64,000 nt of DNA from Desulforegula conservatrix Mb1Pa (lineage in GTDB: Bacteria > Desulfobacterota > Desulfobacteria > Desulfobacterales > Desulforegulaceae). The notes under the pieces were generated by a model. The model saw only the letters and a list, made by a program, of their open reading frames with translations. It was not told the DNA's origin and searched no databases. The stretch covers positions 1-64,000 of the forward strand of contig NZ_AUEY01000017.1 of assembly GCF_000426225.1 (NCBI RefSeq). Direction: 5' to 3'. The first letter of the stretch is position 1. Each line of letters begins with the position of its first letter. Below, piece after piece: positions 26,926 to 57,415 of the stretch. Both the position numbers and the translations under genes were made by a program.

Positions 26926-29346
26926 ATGACAAACCAGGATATTCAAAACTACAGCGCAGAAAACATCAAGGTTCTTGAAGGACTCGAAGCAGTCCGCAAA
27001 AGACCTTCCATGTATATAGGAAACGTTGATACCGAGGGTCTCCATCACTTGGTCTATGAAGTAGTTGACAACAGCATCGACGAGGCAATGGCCGGATTCT
27101 GCGACAGAATACACATAATAATCCATACGGACAATTCGGTGTCAGTCGTGGATAATGGCAGAGGCATCCCGGTTGACATGCATGAGAAGGAACAAAAACC
27201 AGCTGCTGAAGTCGTTCTGACGACACTTCACGCAGGCGGGAAATTCGAAGGCGAATCCTACAAGGTATCAGGAGGGCTTCATGGTGTTGGTATCTCAGTT
27301 GTAAACGCCCTTTCATCCCACTTAGAACTGCTTATTTACAAAAATGGCAACATATACAGGCAGACCTTCGAAAAAGGCATTAAAGCGACAGAGCTGACGA
27401 TAATCGGGACAACAGATCTGAATGGAACAAAGGTTCATTTCAAGCCAGACACAACAATAATGAACCACGACAATTTTTCATTCGAGGTTTTATCCCGCAG
27501 AATGAGGGAATTGGCCTTCCTAAACAGGGGTGTAAGAATAATAATAGAAGATGAGCGAAGCGATGAAAAGCATGACTTCTATTATGAGGGCGGACTTGTT
27601 GAATTCGTCAACTATCTGAATCAGCATCATAATGCAATACACGACGCCATCCTCATATCCGGCAACAGAAATGATATCCAGGTGGAGGTTGCGATTCAGT
27701 ACAACGAAACCTACCAGGAAAACATCTACTCATTTGCCAATAATATCAATACAATAGAAGGCGGAAGCCATCTCAGCGGATTCAAGGGCGCTCTGACAAG
27801 ATCTCTTAATGCATATTCCACCAGCGACAACATGCCCAAAAACATGCAGGTAAAAATAAGCGGGGATGATGTCCGCGAAGGTCTTACCACCGTAATAAGC
27901 ATAAGAATAAAAGATCCACAGTTCGAAGGCCAGACAAAGACCAAGCTCGGCAACAGCGAAGTAAAGGGTATAGTAGAATCTCTGGTCAACGAAAAACTGA
28001 CTGAATACCTCGAGGAAAACCCTTCCACAGCCAAAAAAATCATCACCAAGGCAGTTGAAGCCGCACGTGTAAGAGACGCCGCAAAAAGAGCCAGAGATCT
28101 CGCCCGCAGCAAGAGCTCTCTGTTTGACGGAACCCTCCCGGGCAAGCTCGCTGATTGTCAGTCATCAAAGCCCGAAGAAAAAGAGCTTTTCCTCGTCGAA
28201 GGTGACTCTGCCGGAGGCTCGGCCAAACAGGGCAGAGACAGAAAATTTCAGGCCATACTTCCGCTTAAGGGTAAAATTCTGAACGTCGAAAAAGCAAGGT
28301 TCGACAAAATACTAAAGAGCGAGGAAATCAAGAACATCATCACAGTGCTTGGCACAGGCCCTGCTGGTGAAGAGTATGAAATTGACAAGGTCAAATATCA
28401 CAAAATAGTAATCATGACAGATGCGGACGTTGATGGCTCGCATATCAGAACCCTTCTTCTTACATTTTTCTACAGGCAGATGCCCCAGATAATAGAAAAA
28501 GGTTATCTGTATATTGCCCAGCCGCCTCTCTACAGAATCAGCAAGGGCAAGACAGGCGTATACCTCAAGGATGACAGATCATACAGAGAGCACCTCATCA
28601 GAAAGGCAAGCGATACCCTGAAGGTGGAAACATCAGAAGGTATAGAGCTATTTGGAACCGAGCTTTACACATATCTCATGGATCTTGCCGACTATCTGAA
28701 CAGCCTGGCAGTTATGGAAAGACGCGGATACAATTCTGAGGTCGCGGAAATCCTGCTCGCAAACACAGTAACCACCAAGGAGCGCCTTGCAAACAGAGAA
28801 GTCATGGAAAAGGCCAGAGGGCAGATAATCAGCGCGGGCTATGAAGCAAAAGAACTGTTCTGGAATGAGGACAGGCAGATATTTGAAATAGAGGTAATGC
28901 CAGGACAATCAGTCACGAGCGACGCCACCAAGACAACATATCAGTCATTCAAGGTCGGAAGAAGTTTCATATATTCCCCTGAATACCAAGCCTGCATTCC
29001 GCTCAAGCTCAAGATATCTTCATTCGGGACTGCCTTCACAGTCATAGCCGGAGAAAAGGTGACGGACAGAACCACCATAACCGGCAGAAAGGAATTGTTC
29101 CAGTTCATCATGGAAGAAAGCAAAAGAGGCCTCACTGTCCAGAGATACAAAGGTCTAGGAGAAATGAACCCTGACCAGCTATGGGAAACCACCATGAATC
29201 CTGAACAGAGAACCATGCTCCAGGTCAAGGTGGAGGACGCTGTCGAAAGCGACAGAATCTTTTCACTCCTCATGGGCGATGAGGTCGAACCAAGAAGAAA
29301 TTTCATAGTCCAGCACGCACTCGAAGTAACATCCCTGGATTACTGA
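26926..29346 (+). CDS. gyrB: DNA gyrase subunit B
   Basis: 806 residues. GHKL ATPase: VYEVVDNSIDEAMAGF, DNGRGIPVD and GGLHGVGISVVNAL; transducer domain; TOPRIM: LVEGDSAGGSAKQGRDR and MTDADVDGSHIRTLLLTF. The length and the block between about residues 560 and 720 show the extra TOPRIM-associated insertion of proteobacterial GyrB. The C-terminal RYKGLGEMNPDQLWETTMNP tail contacts GyrA. It supplies the ATPase for negative supercoiling. There is no Shine-Dalgarno sequence before the ATG. A TTGACA at 26886-26891 and TATATT at 26912-26917 (20-base spacer) would place the transcript start within a few bases of the ATG, so leaderless translation is possible. Confidence 0.97.
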   Translation: MTNQDIQNYSAENIKVLEGLEAVRKRPSMYIGNVDTEGLHHLVYEVVDNSIDEAMAGFCDRIHIIIHTDNSVSVVDNGRGIPVDMHEKEQKPAAEVVLTTLHAGGKFEGESYKVSGGLHGVGISVVNALSSHLELLIYKNGNIYRQTFEKGIKATELTIIGTTDLNGTKVHFKPDTTIMNHDNFSFEVLSRRMRELAFLNRGVRIIIEDERSDEKHDFYYEGGLVEFVNYLNQHHNAIHDAILISGNRNDIQVEVAIQYNETYQENIYSFANNINTIEGGSHLSGFKGALTRSLNAYSTSDNMPKNMQVKISGDDVREGLTTVISIRIKDPQFEGQTKTKLGNSEVKGIVESLVNEKLTEYLEENPSTAKKIITKAVEAARVRDAAKRARDLARSKSSLFDGTLPGKLADCQSSKPEEKELFLVEGDSAGGSAKQGRDRKFQAILPLKGKILNVEKARFDKILKSEEIKNIITVLGTGPAGEEYEIDKVKYHKIVIMTDADVDGSHIRTLLLTFFYRQMPQIIEKGYLYIAQPPLYRISKGKTGVYLKDDRSYREHLIRKASDTLKVETSEGIELFGTELYTYLMDLADYLNSLAVMERRGYNSEVAEILLANTVTTKERLANREVMEKARGQIISAGYEAKELFWNEDRQIFEIEVMPGQSVTSDATKTTYQSFKVGRSFIYSPEYQACIPLKLKISSFGTAFTVIAGEKVTDRTTITGRKELFQFIMEESKRGLTVQRYKGLGEMNPDQLWETTMNPEQRTMLQVKVEDAVESDRIFSLLMGDEVEPRRNFIVQHALEVTSLDY

Positions 29347-29382
29347 TAATACCCATCAAAATACTCGCCGGACAAACATCTT

Positions 29383-29428
29383 GCCTCCGGCGGGTCGCTT
29401 TTTTGAAAAAAAGCTCCGCAAAAAACTT
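29383..29428. repeat. R2 repeat, left arm of an inverted pair
   Basis: GCCTCCGGCGGGTCGC, the hairpin TTTTTTGAAAAAAAGC, then TCCGCAAAAAACTT. An inverted copy lies at 30578-30620. The sequence just upstream (CTCGCCGG at about 29363) can pair with CCGGCGGG here, so the copy may also serve as gyrB terminator. Confidence 0.82.
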
Positions 29429-29497
29429 CAGGGATTTTTGATTATTAGTGTAGGGTGTGTAGCGCCCTTCTAAGCACCATTTTCGACGGGCATGTAT

Positions 29498-29545
29498 AGG
29501 CAGTCAGGCAGTCAGGCAGTCAGGCAGTCAGGCAGTCAGGCAGTC
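29498..29545. repeat. Tandem octamer repeat (AGGCAGTC) x 6
   Basis: Six exact head-to-tail copies of an 8-base unit, ending 42 bases before the first ATG of the DUF2971 gene, in its presumed promoter region (TTTAAT at 29555-29560 follows). Perfect short repeats of this kind change copy number by polymerase slippage. Confidence 0.95.
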
Positions 29546-29587
29546 TTAATTGCCTTTAATTTATTACGGAATAGAACAATTTTTCAA

Positions 29588-30504
29588 ATGATGGAATCAT
29601 CATCCGAAAAAAATGCTCATTTTTTAAATATTGCTCTACCAAAACCCTAAAAGCAATCATTGAAAACAAAACCATTCGATGGAGTTCGCCCGCCACCCTC
29701 AATGATCCCTTCGACATACAAACTGATTTCAGATTTGGGTTTGAATTTGAGGATTTCAAGAAAGCTCTTATTGAAGAAGAAGCTAATCTCATTTTTGGTA
29801 AAGAAGAGCCAACAGGAGATAAAAGCCATCCTCTTTTTAATATATTAATGATGGCCAGAAAAAACAGGCATGAATTCCCATCAAAAGATTCTTTTATGGA
29901 AGATAGCAAGAAAGCTTCCGGTGAACTGCTAGAACTTTTTAGAGCCAATATGCTTGACAATCAAGCTCTATGGATAAAAAGAAGATCTAATTTAAAAATT
30001 TATTGTGTATCCAAATCTAAAACCGGCACTCCTGACAACCTTTTGCTGTGGGCACATTATGCGTACAAGCATATGGGCGCTGTTATTCAGCATAGATGCC
30101 TTAAAGAACAAGAAATGACTGATTTTGGAGTTTTCCAGGTTGATTATAAAAAAGAAATGCCAATTATTGCTGACCTTAACGAGTATGTGAAACACTTTAC
30201 AGGTCAAAAGAAATTGGATTTTGATAATCTTGCTATAAAATTTGCCAGGACTAAAAGCGATCATTGGGAATACGAAAATGAATGGCGCTATATTAAATAT
30301 GATATAACTAATAGCAATGCAGAATTTGAAAATGTCAGTATCGATCCGAATAAAATTGAGGCCATATATTTTGGCTGCAAAATGGACGAAAAAGAACTAA
30401 TTGAAATTAAAAATTTAATTTCAGGAGATTTTTCTCATGTTAAGCTGTTTCAAGCGCATCAGCACACTAAATTTTATAAGCTCGAATTTCTACCAATTAA
30501 TTAA
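29588..30504 (+). pseudogene. DUF2971-family gene with a reading-frame break at an A7 run
   Basis: From about 29611 to 30504 one frame encodes a DUF2971 protein: FFKYCSTKTLKAIIENKTIR, WSSPATLNDPFDIQ (the family's N-terminal signature), LLLWAHYAYKHMGAVIQHRC and the YENEWRYIKYD motif. This frame has no ATG, GTG or TTG before an in-frame TAG at 29570-29572 until an internal ATG at 29848, which would delete the signature. Two ATGs at 29588 and 29591 start a different frame (MMESSSEKN). A -1 shift at A-AAA-AAT (29607-29614) would join them into about 305 residues. So the gene is broken, phase-variable, translated by frameshifting, or mis-sequenced at the homopolymer. The family has no settled function; some members sit near phage-defence genes. 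It is flanked by inverted R2 copies and preceded by a tandem octamer repeat. Confidence 0.75.
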
Positions 30505-30577
30505 TACGGGCAAATAAAAATTATCCGGCCAACAGACCGTTGGCAGATACAAACGTTTAAAACCTTAGAAATTCATA

Positions 30578-30620
30578 AAGTTTTTGCGGAGCTTTTTCCA
30601 AAAAGCGACCCGCCGGAGGC
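30578..30620. repeat. R2 repeat, right arm of an inverted pair
   Basis: AAGTTTTTGCGGAGC, hairpin CTTTTTCCAAAAAGCG, then ACCCGCCGGAGGC: the reverse complement of the copy at 29383-29428 with a few changes. It is followed by a GTTGGTGCGCAAG...GAGCACCCTACG segment like that at 57355-57415. Confidence 0.82.
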
Positions 30621-30736
30621 ACACGCAGTTGGTGCGCAAGCCTTAGGGCTTGAGCACCCTACGAATCGGCAAATTAGACAGACAAGGCAACAACCGTCTT
30701 TCATGCATTTTCAAATATTCGACAAGAGACTATAAA

Positions 30737-46046: not shown

Positions 46047-48023
46047 TTATGCAGGGATAATTCTGTGGTAAGGAGCTTTTCTCATGGTCCACTCGTTGGT
46101 CTTCTTGTTGAAGGTCGAGTTAACAAAGCAGAACCAGTTTTCATCATCCTGACCCATGAAGTCAGTTCTGTAGTAGAAGCCAGGGAAGCGGCTTTCCTGA
46201 CGGAACAGGATGTGACGGCAATGTGCTTCTACAGTGTAGATACGATGGAAGATTTCCCAGCAACGCATAAGTTCATGAAGGTCGCCAGCTGCAAGGAATT
46301 CACAGTCTTCCTTCATCATCTGGAAAAGTTCCATAAGATGATCAAGAGCAGACTTGTTGGTCTGATAGTATGTAGCGACGCCAGCACCATATTCGTTGGT
46401 AGCTTTCATCATACGCATAGTCATACCAGCAGGTTTGCAGTACTTAGGGTTAACGTCTGCTGCAGTAGAGTAATCTTTGTGAGCAAACCAAGTCTTAACC
46501 GGTTTCCAAACCATGTCAGCTGCTTCCTGAGCTGTCATTTCTGGCTCTGGCTTGAAGTTTGGATGATCTTTTACCCACTTAACCATTACTTTACCAAGGA
46601 TACGGCCTTCAGCATGTGAACCTGAAGAGAACTTGTGACCTGAGCAGCCAACGCCGTCAGCAGCAGTGAAGAGACCCTTAACGGTGGTCATCTGCTTGTA
46701 AACCTTACCATTGTCGCCCCACTTGTAGTCTTCTGGAACCCAGTCTTCGTTTGGACCGGAAACCCAGATACCACAGCAGCCTGAGTGTGAACCCAGGAGG
46801 TACGGTTCGGTTGGCATGATTTCAGAGTCTTTCTTTTCTGGCTCGGTGTTAGTTGCGCACCAGAGGTTCGCCTGACCGCAAGTCATGTCAAGGAAGTCTT
46901 CCCAAGCTTCTGCTTCAAGATGCTTAAGTTCTTTCTTGTCCATGGTTTCACCAAGCTTCTGAAGAGCCTTGGAAGTAACCATCATGATTGGGCCACGACC
47001 TGCTTTCATTTCGAAAAGCATGAGGTGGTTACGGAGACAGGTAGGAGTGATCGGAGCTGTTCCGTATGGAGCATATTTTGCAAGTTCGTCTTTAGAAGAC
47101 TGAGCAGTTGCATAGTTTTCGCCCATGGAGTTTTCAAGGTGAGCCTTGAAAAGAAGGAACCATGCACCAACAGGACCGTAACCATCTTTGAAACGGGCTG
47201 GGGTGAAACGGTTTTCCATCATGGAAAGCTCTGCACCAGCGCGAAGAGCCATGGTGTAGGTAGAACCAGCATTCCATACTGGGTACCATGCACGGCCTTT
47301 ACCTTCACCAACTGAACGTGGCTGGTAAATGTTAACCGCACCACCGCAAGCTACCATTACTGCGTTAGCCTTGATGTAGTATACTTTGTTTTCACGGGTA
47401 GAGAAACCAACCGCACCAGCGATTCTGTTTGGCTCATTCTTGTCGTTGAGGAGTTCAACGATGAATACGCGCTCAAGGATGTTCTCTTCGCCAAGAGCTT
47501 TCTTTGCTGCTTCAGCAACGATTCTCTTGTAAGACTCACCATTGATCATGATCTGCCATTTACCGGTACGAACTGGCTTAGCACCTGCCTTGAGAGTGCC
47601 GAGCTTAAGGCCCTGCTTACCATCAAGGTTCTTGTTTGCTTCGTCTTTTTTCCAGATTGGGAGTCCCCATTCTTCGAAAAGATGAACAGAGTCATCAACG
47701 TGACGGCCAAGGTCGAAAATAAGGTCTTCGCGAACGATACCCATAAGGTCGTTACGAACCATACGTACGTAGTCGTCGATTGCGTTGTCACCAATGAAGG
47801 TGTTGATAGCGGAAAGGCCCTGAGCAACAGCGCCTGATCTTTCCATAGCAGCTTTGTCAACAAGAAGGATCTTCGTGTTGTCATCTGCCCATTTCTTTAT
47901 TTCAAAAGCAGTACCGCAAGCTGCCATACCGCCGCCGACGATGAGTACGTCAACTTCTTTTTCAACTATTTCAGGAGCCTCAATACACTTGAGTTCGCCT
48001 TGTGCCTTGTTTGGTAAAGCCAT
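46047..48023 (-). CDS. aprA: Adenylylsulfate reductase, alpha subunit
   Basis: 658 residues, close to the usual size. FAD fold: VDVLIVGGGMAACGTAFEI; GAVAQGLSAINTF; a WYPVWNAGSTYTMALRAGAE segment; SRFPGFYYRTDFMGQDDENW near the C-terminus. It reduces APS to sulfite and AMP, with electrons from AprB, in the cytoplasm. Codon choice is strongly biased to GGT, GCT, AAC and CGT, as in sat. The stop is 31 bases before the aprA-qmoA hairpin. Confidence 0.98.
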   Translation of the reverse strand: MALPNKAQGELKCIEAPEIVEKEVDVLIVGGGMAACGTAFEIKKWADDNTKILLVDKAAMERSGAVAQGLSAINTFIGDNAIDDYVRMVRNDLMGIVREDLIFDLGRHVDDSVHLFEEWGLPIWKKDEANKNLDGKQGLKLGTLKAGAKPVRTGKWQIMINGESYKRIVAEAAKKALGEENILERVFIVELLNDKNEPNRIAGAVGFSTRENKVYYIKANAVMVACGGAVNIYQPRSVGEGKGRAWYPVWNAGSTYTMALRAGAELSMMENRFTPARFKDGYGPVGAWFLLFKAHLENSMGENYATAQSSKDELAKYAPYGTAPITPTCLRNHLMLFEMKAGRGPIMMVTSKALQKLGETMDKKELKHLEAEAWEDFLDMTCGQANLWCATNTEPEKKDSEIMPTEPYLLGSHSGCCGIWVSGPNEDWVPEDYKWGDNGKVYKQMTTVKGLFTAADGVGCSGHKFSSGSHAEGRILGKVMVKWVKDHPNFKPEPEMTAQEAADMVWKPVKTWFAHKDYSTAADVNPKYCKPAGMTMRMMKATNEYGAGVATYYQTNKSALDHLMELFQMMKEDCEFLAAGDLHELMRCWEIFHRIYTVEAHCRHILFRQESRFPGFYYRTDFMGQDDENWFCFVNSTFNKKTNEWTMRKAPYHRIIPA

Positions 48024-53426: not shown

Positions 53427-53720
53427 TTATTGGATCAAGAAATGATTCTCAAGGATGAGCTTTCTGAAATTTTCGGAAACAGAATTAAAATCAACAACAT
53501 CTATCATAATAGGCAGATCTGATTCTGAAAAAGCATCCTTAAGCCTTTCAACTATTCTCCAGTCTATTTTTCCATTAGAAACCAAAGCAAGATCAAGATC
53601 GGAAAATTTTTGTGGTCTGCCGTTTACCCTCGATCCAAAAGCCCAAACACTATATTCTGGTATTGTCTCAGAGAGAATACGCTTAATCAGGTCAAACTGT
53701 AGATTGTCAATATCAATCAT
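53427..53720 (-). CDS. MNT-type minimal nucleotidyltransferase (antitoxin of HEPN/MNT pair)
   Basis: 97 residues. The pol-beta fold signature is AFGSRVNGRPQKFSDLDLAL, giving GSxxxG...DxD. Minimal nucleotidyltransferases of this type act as antitoxin for a HEPN partner, in studied cases by adenylylating it. Its start overlaps the end of the HEPN gene by 8 bases, so the pair is translationally coupled. Confidence 0.9.
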   Translation of the reverse strand: MIDIDNLQFDLIKRILSETIPEYSVWAFGSRVNGRPQKFSDLDLALVSNGKIDWRIVERLKDAFSESDLPIMIDVVDFNSVSENFRKLILENHFLIQ

Positions 53721-54138
53721 TTGCCTTTTCCAGCCTATTTAACAACACTCCCGCATCTTTTATGAATTTCAAGGCAATGACATATACTTCTTCGGCTATA
53801 CTTTCACTATAAGTATGCGAGGTCAGGTTTCTTGCGTCTCCATAAACAAACCAGGGAGCAGGGTCATCAATCAGCCCGTATCTTGCAGCCATGCGGAAAA
53901 GATCCTTCCTCGTCCTTGGATGATCAGAGTCTTCGGGACTTATGTTCGCCCTGATCCACCTCTGCAAAAACTTCCAGCACAATTCATATGTAAACTCAAA
54001 ATTCTGAATCACGCCCGCCTTGAGACCAAATCTTGTGACATCGTCAAGACCTGACATGAATTCCTCGTCGGATGTTTTTGCCACCAAAGCTTCAAATGAA
54101 TTCAATGCTTTTCTATAACTCTCCAGATCCAGATTCAT
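53713..54138 (-). CDS. HEPN-domain protein, HI0074/nucleotidyltransferase-substrate-binding family (toxin of the pair)
   Basis: 141 residues, all-helical, matching the HI0074 family: QNFEFTYELCWKFLQRWI near residue 45, RKDLFRMAARYGLI, and ARNLTSHTYSESIAEEVY with the RxxxxH motif. In the larger HEPN superfamily this motif is the RNase active site, so an RNA-cleaving toxin is plausible, though for HI0074 members this is less tested. It shares an ATGA overlap with the upstream membrane-protein gene and is followed by its MNT partner. Confidence 0.9.
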   Translation of the reverse strand: MNLDLESYRKALNSFEALVAKTSDEEFMSGLDDVTRFGLKAGVIQNFEFTYELCWKFLQRWIRANISPEDSDHPRTRKDLFRMAARYGLIDDPAPWFVYGDARNLTSHTYSESIAEEVYVIALKFIKDAGVLLNRLEKAND

Positions 54139-54563
54139 TTCTTTTCCTTTATTTCCTTTGCCTGCCTAAGAATATCGCCATAATGCTCTTCTGTACACTC
54201 AGGACAAAGGCTGTGGGAAAAAACTGCTTCTGAGTGTTCAGTGATGTATTTTTCAAGCTGAATCCATTCCTTCTCAACCCTTATTTTCTTGCAAAAGGAG
54301 CAAACAGGTAGAAAACCCTCAAGATGCTTTAATTTCTTTAAGGTGTGGTTTGTCATTCTGAGGACAAATATGCCGAGTATAAAAATGCAAGTACTCTCAA
54401 ACAGACTTTCCTGCCAGTTAATCGGGGTTTTTCTAGCACCAAGAAAAAAATAAGGAATATCGACAAGTTCATCAAGCCAGATAATCAGCATTACAATTGC
54501 AAAGCCAGCCGCCTCATAACCCAGAATAATCTTCTGCAAGTTGTTTTTCATATGTCCCCGCAT
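54135..54563 (-). CDS. Two-helix membrane protein with C-terminal four-cysteine motif
   Basis: 142 residues. Two membrane helices (about IILGYEAAGFAIVMLIIWLD and SLFESTCIFILGIFVLRMTN) are followed by GFLPVCSFCKKIRVEKEWIQ and SHSLCPECTEEHYG. This is the same GFLPxCSxCKKIR...CPxC unit as in the PAS protein at 31097-31669. The motif is likely a zinc or redox site facing the cytoplasm. A Met at 54551 is an alternative start. Its stop overlaps the HEPN start, so it may belong functionally to that pair. Confidence 0.8.
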   Translation of the reverse strand: MRGHMKNNLQKIILGYEAAGFAIVMLIIWLDELVDIPYFFLGARKTPINWQESLFESTCIFILGIFVLRMTNHTLKKLKHLEGFLPVCSFCKKIRVEKEWIQLEKYITEHSEAVFSHSLCPECTEEHYGDILRQAKEIKEKK

Positions 54564-57272: not shown

Positions 57273-57282
57273 TTATAAAAGG

Positions 57283-57415
57283 CCTCCGGTGGGTCGCTTT
57301 TTTGAAAAAAAGCTCCGCAAAAAACTTTCATTTTTTTATTCGTAGCGTGTTCAAACCGCAAGGTTTGCGCACCATTTTTCGGTGCGCTGGCCTTAGAGCC
57401 TGTGCACCCTACATT
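57283..57415. repeat. R2 repeat, full copy
   Basis: GGCCTCCGGTGGGTCGC, hairpin TTTTTTGAAAAAAAGC, CTCCGCAAAAAACTTTC, then a second part with CGTAGCGTGTTCAAACCGC and GCACCATTTTTCGGTGCG ending near CTGTGCACCCTACAT. It occupies most of the gap between the ubiD-like gene and the flavin-binding gene. Confidence 0.85.

Follow-up and report, generated by a model that had tools for sequence, protein, structure and literature searches.

In Haemophilus influenzae biogroup aegyptius, the putative promoter region of the surface adhesin gene hmwA is described as carrying octanucleotide repeats of varying copy number, with 12-15 copies differing between strains (PMC3309571), and TAAA repeats lying upstream of the nadA promoter are reported to tune nadA, a case built on promoter, repressor and transcript data (PMC2791445). 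The locus described here lies in a stretch of 64 kb that was analysed as a whole and is called the window below. It resembles hmwA in having an octamer array upstream of a gene, and differs from it in that six copies were seen, once, and in that the gene is a defence candidate (PMC3309571); with nadA it shares a repeat tract upstream of a gene and possibly of a promoter, which at our locus was recognised by eye only (PMC2791445). A further parallel concerns the gene itself. In Halomonas elongata the DUF2971 gene Helo_3291A was recorded with a frameshift, and it is listed as the repair of a known frameshift upon resequencing of a 454 genome in which 19 T-runs carried one base too many; there, the frameshift was resolved by the resequencing (PMC5552945). 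In the literature searched, phase variation together with anti-phage defence or with slipped strand mispairing was not found, PDC-S31 was not mentioned, and DUF2971 was scarcely named. The explanation that we favour for the present locus, and consider rather probable, is that it is a DUF2971 (PDC-S31) gene, a phage-defence candidate gained by horizontal transfer, with ATG 29613 as its most likely native start, its N-terminus being out of frame by one base in this assembly, probably through a break in a run of six T (T6).

The octamer array between gyrB and the DUF2971 gene

A perfect array of six AGGCAGTC octamers is located on the plus strand at 29498-29545, as seen both in the sequence and by TRF, whose score of 96 for the array is the highest of 19 rows for the window (runner-up, 64). 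It starts ~150 bases after the end of the upstream neighbour (26926-29346, plus strand), a gene open over 806 codons that we take to be gyrB from its recognisable sequence. A three-unit search with 2 mismatches allowed found the array nowhere else in the 4.47-Mb genome, and of 291 genomes of the order only its own contained it. Since neither a 400,000-base sample of the genome, this array aside, nor 4 Mb of simulated order-1 Markov sequence yielded a perfect array of 5-15-nt units with at least 3 copies and at least 24 nt, the array exceeds chance. It is a genuine minisatellite, ~67 bases 5′ of ATG 29613. A sequence-only reading of this DNA had placed six exact copies 42 bases before the first ATG, and this was borne out, as ATG 29588 is the first after the array. 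The second-strongest array in the window is an imperfect 24-nt tandem repeat of 1.9 copies at 47719-47764. Short runs of the same octamer in two viral contigs (L177 and L178) appeared to be unrelated arrays and were set aside.

The region 29498-29555 comprises the array plus ATTGCCT, and a T-rich stretch comes after it. The RNA fold of 29498-29575, covering the array and the bases after it, was better than that of shuffled sequences (z -3.31). The last octamer and the next bases can form a 7-pair hairpin, and a terminator or attenuator was considered on this ground, but no function follows from the pairing. By eye, a weak promoter matching at 8 of 12 positions (TTGCCT-16-TAGAAC, 29550-29577) would begin 4 bases past the array, whereas a promoter scan of the plus strand from 29300 to 29613 passed none. 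One rival reading is a reversible phase variation, in which the octamer number would tune the promoter, or the lengths of T6 and of a run of seven A (A7) would switch the frame, leaving the defence protein off in most cells. The perfection and uniqueness of the array, the weak promoter, the precedents of hmwA and nadA and the PADLOC assignment of the protein (see below) speak for such switching; the negative promoter scan speaks against it, as do the searched upstream stretches of 108 DUF2971 relatives, none of which holds an array, the genome sample with no second such array, and an octamer number known from a single sequence. In addition, neither A7 nor T6 is long or rare: the window has 58 A/T runs that are exactly seven bases in length and 112 that are exactly six, and the run length at which selection against slippage is reported for many genomes is nine nt (PMC1088944). 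Taken together, we regard reversible switching as unlikely.

Octamer number alone was rejected as a translational switch because the alternative frames meet stops before the DUF2971 frame opens: on leaving the array, a stop follows right after it, or within 12 bases and again at 29572. Copy number alone therefore joins no upstream ATG to DUF2971, so that the array, if it matters, would act on transcription or RNA and not on the reading frame; the homopolymer runs, unlike the octamer number, could join or break the frame. The earlier view that the locus has the features of a switchable gene thus holds in part: an exceptional array does lie upstream of the gene, in the manner of known promoter-type repeats, but by itself it is no translational switch.

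The gene and its array are flanked by dispersed repeats. An intergenic copy follows gyrB at 29382-29424, inverted relative to 30581-30621, and a composite copy, made of a REP-like hairpin and a 45-nt element, follows the DUF2971 gene at 30571-30670; the repeat also occurs at 57282-57327. The 45-nt element (TGCCTCCGGCGGGTCGCTTTTTTGAAAAA...) is often joined to the REP-like hairpin (GGTGCGCAAGCC...GGCTTGAGCACC), and we take these repeats to be REP-type elements. First-look searches gave 356 and 333 candidates, of which 40 each were scored, and 42 and 45 matches were listed; the repeat is perhaps present in hundreds of copies in the genome. An inversion of the segment by its flanking inverted repeats was considered and set aside, as there is no reason to think that it inverts when the repeats are ordinary dispersed ones.

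The DUF2971/PDC-S31 protein and its relatives

The coding region (SFFKYC...LEFLPIN) extends over 29617-30504 on the plus strand. Its product matches Pfam PF11185 (DUF2971) above the cut-off, PADLOC PDC-S31 with an E value of 5.3e-42 (positions 9-255 of the 259-position profile, from residue 3) and phrog_1762 with an E value of 1.2e-48 (from residue 2). The family models are matched over most of their length, which makes this a full-length match; an NCBIfam model scored far under its cut-off and was disregarded. The family residues F/Y-K-Y, NDP, W..HYA..H.G and K...W.YE.E.R are all present, and no stop breaks the remaining 292 codons of the frame. PDC presumably stands for phage defence candidate. 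The suggestion, made from the letters alone, of a defence protein is thus matched by the PADLOC assignment, and we treat the protein as a phage-defence candidate.

An AlphaFold model of 29614-30501 reached a mean pLDDT of 92.8 and a pTM of 0.85, with residues 1-78 modelled confidently, including an N-terminal strand-helix-strand. Foldseek itself found nothing in the PDB at an E value of 0.001 or better, whereas a second structural look placed Tpt1 (7yw4; Z 8.2, 107 aligned residues, 2.9 A) and DarT (7omy and 7yk3; Z 6.7-7.2) in its top rows, with values that the tool rates as middling, and returned the further ADP-ribosyltransferases CteC (Z 4.4-5.0) and pierisin-1 (Z 3.9). A sequence relation to DarT was rejected, since a profile-profile comparison with 9 DarT sequences gave a probability of 0.3 and no support, and the A2 profile had no match among PDB chains up to an E value of 10. 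Given the middling Z values and the outcome of the DarT profile comparison, the possible ADP-ribosyltransferase-like fold of PDC-S31, suggested by the model, stays a lead.

The genome holds a second DUF2971 gene at 1240-2010 of another contig (locus L007; G000 contig 94), with a profile match over the cut-off (E 1.0e-5); its ORF has an in-frame ATG (MSLFHYTDVNG...) and adjoins an ATPase-like ORF. Elsewhere in the window, two overlapping ORFs lie on the minus strand at 53713-54563, the downstream one matching NTase_sub_bind (PF08780) and its partner having no Pfam match; we take them to resemble a nucleotidyltransferase/HEPN toxin-antitoxin pair. Of 96 genomes of the order, 7 contain relatives by the DUF2971 family profile, the own genome being one of them, and GC is 0.339 over 29613-30504 as against 0.461 in gyrB and 0.441 in the window. 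Such low GC and patchy distribution are as expected of a mobile accessory gene, and the gene was probably borrowed by horizontal transfer.

To compare gene starts, 108 relatives were gathered, 80 from genomes, 23 from viral contigs and 5 from plasmids. The motif NDP[FYLW] was found in the matching ORF of 102 of them, and the 6 loci lacking it were dropped. In each of these, an ATG, GTG or TTG stands in frame at a distance of more than 20 codons upstream of NDP, and none of the 102 is without one at 26 codons or more. Here, in contrast, the conserved N-terminus (SFFKYC...WSSPATLNDPFD) precedes any start codon of the DUF2971 frame, and an intact in-frame start together with that N-terminus, which marks an active copy and not family descent, was not found. 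None of the 108 relatives matches in two frames. An in-frame stop occurs in 2 of the 108 (L087 and L131), which shows that broken DUF2971 copies occur elsewhere. T-runs of at least five over the F-K-Y codons were seen in 5 of 99 relatives, so that a run like T6 is not peculiar to this gene, nor is it a general feature.

Start codons and possible slip sites

The DUF2971 frame is open over 29575-30504 and contains no ATG, GTG or TTG before the ATG at 29848-29850. Upstream, a 52-codon ORF on the plus strand (29492-29650) runs open through the array in the frame shared by ATG 29588 and ATG 29591 and ends at the stop 29648-29650, and its own ATG 29492 lies six bases 5′ of the array and has no Shine-Dalgarno sequence. 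The earlier claim that the first ATG and DUF2971 lie in different frames is confirmed, and in this sequence the break between them is real. The A7 run (29607-29613, plus strand) gives the heptamer A_AAA_AAT at 29608-29614 and the T6 run (29620-29625, plus strand) gives T_TTT_TTA at 29620-29626, both in phase with ATG 29588 and both leading into the DUF2971 frame; the locus thus has homopolymer runs at the start of the ORF, a tandem repeat upstream of it and in-phase heptamers of the form X_XXZ_ZZN. The T6 run is the last one able to change the frame before the conserved region. Where the A7 run ends, ATG 29613 opens a third frame on the plus strand, which reads M L I F and then TAA (29613-29627); across T6, this frame and that of DUF2971 differ by one base. 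The sequence-only reading had omitted ATG 29492, ATG 29613 and T_TTT_TTA 29620-29626. An imperfect palindrome with 14-nt arms and a 4-nt loop (TTTTTCAAATGATG-GAAT-CATCATCCGAAAAA, 29580-29611) surrounds ATG 29588/29591 and is possibly an operator or a start-hiding hairpin; the RNA fold of 29570-29640 had a z of -1.84. If the palindrome paired, it would do so in competition with an A7-T6 pairing.

Two readings would leave the gene intact as it stands. In the first, the internal ATG 29848 would be the start of a 218-residue protein with nothing upstream translated; it is the first standard start in frame, and the whole Pfam DUF2971 domain lies inside this protein. However, such a product would drop the NDP motif (29701-29709, plus strand), which all 72 of the 72 aligned sequences share without change, together with ~78 confidently modelled residues. 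The PADLOC and PHROG matches begin at residues 3 and 2 of the longer frame, and the Shine-Dalgarno duplex energy at 29848 is +2.9, that is, absent. With NDP and the confident N-terminal model both lying upstream, ATG 29848 is unlikely to give the family's protein, and we consider this start very improbable. In the second, a non-standard start would begin the gene in the DUF2971 frame, where three in-frame ATC codons stand shortly 5′ of A7. Translation table 11 permits ATC as a rare start. Against this, no Shine-Dalgarno sequence precedes 29596 (+0.6) and all 102 relatives have an ATG, GTG or TTG, so that this start too seems highly unlikely.

A programmed -1 ribosomal frameshift from ATG 29588 (or 29492) at A_AAA_AAT or T_TTT_TTA would instead give a low, fixed amount of full-length protein. 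Among 36 other ORFs of the window, picked by hand and totalling 15,550 codons, there are 7 in-phase occurrences of A_AAA_AAT and one of T_TTT_TTA, and by these counts two such heptamers within 21 codons are unusual. The downstream stimulatory structure that the sequence-only reading had raised was looked for in the 94 nt of 29627-29720 and found absent (z -0.69), although some bacterial frameshift sites are reported without a known stimulator (PMC4066793). Neither heptamer is of the kind most prone to shift in bacteria; for E. coli, the motifs described as best end in A_AAG, and mixed purine-pyrimidine codons such as AAU and UUA are said to shift less well (PMC4066793). The arrangement also lacks conservation, with 0 of 108 relatives in two frames, and we judge programmed frameshifting quite improbable. 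A still more elaborate reading would make the locus a phase-variable, single-gene phage-defence candidate of an environmental bacterium with two coupled gates, the array inside the leader ORF from ATG 29492 keeping ribosomes in the correct frame only when the number of copies is a multiple of three, as six is, and the pair of slip sites passing a fraction of ribosomes into an ADP-ribosyltransferase-like effector; we give this very little probability.

The probable one-base break and its meaning

The favoured explanation, a one-base break at the start of the gene, rests in part on where the relatives begin. A start exactly 28 codons before NDP is found in 16 of 102 relatives, and ATG 29613 lies at that position, one base out. 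Beginnings of the form M-x-x-[F/Y]-K-Y include those of L121, L122, L123, L129, L160 and L166, and ATG 29613 has the same four-residue distance to K-Y, though shifted by one base from the frame. Among same-order relatives with a readable start, L218 begins MIFYKYC and L217 MILYQY, which favours ATG 29613, and L216 starts further upstream. The native start would thus most likely be ATG 29613, with the indel in the T6 run just after it and the A7 run as second choice. The earlier proposal of A7 as the site of a -1 join is accordingly modified: A_AAA_AAT is correctly phased with 29588, but the break could lie in either run, and T6 is the better candidate of the two, as it adjoins the position of ATG 29613, at which relatives begin. 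A start 35-40 codons before NDP, where ATG 29588 would fit, is found in 47 of 102 relatives, and the Shine-Dalgarno energy is -3.3 at 29588 as at 29613, so that ATG 29588 fits equally well and the position of the break is not settled. Ribosomes that initiate at 29613 would read four codons before a stop, and ribosomes coming from 29588 would meet one at 29648; with stops met from both, little or no full-length protein would be made.

The homopolymer indel would be either a recent real mutation, with the gene off or an early pseudogene, or a sequencing error, and the sequence alone cannot tell the two apart. Where a break is a singleton and BLASTp confirms it, the GeneTack study expects a sequencing error (PMC3711429), and the present break stands alone among 108 relatives. 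The Halomonas elongata gene serves as a precedent for such an error (PMC5552945). No second broken gene was seen among the 8 proteins of the window scanned for one, so that the data do not show a high rate of errors. The unique array, the two in-phase heptamers and the palindrome exceed the needs of a simple broken gene, and this counts against it.

If switching were true, repeat-driven phase variation, which has been studied chiefly in surface genes of pathogens, would be extended to a defence candidate made up of one gene, and a cost of the DUF2971 product would be suggested. Read as a broken gene, the locus still shows the start position of DUF2971 proteins and that the NDP segment belongs to the protein, and the possible ADP-ribosyltransferase-like fold of PDC-S31, as predicted by the model, would be worth testing.
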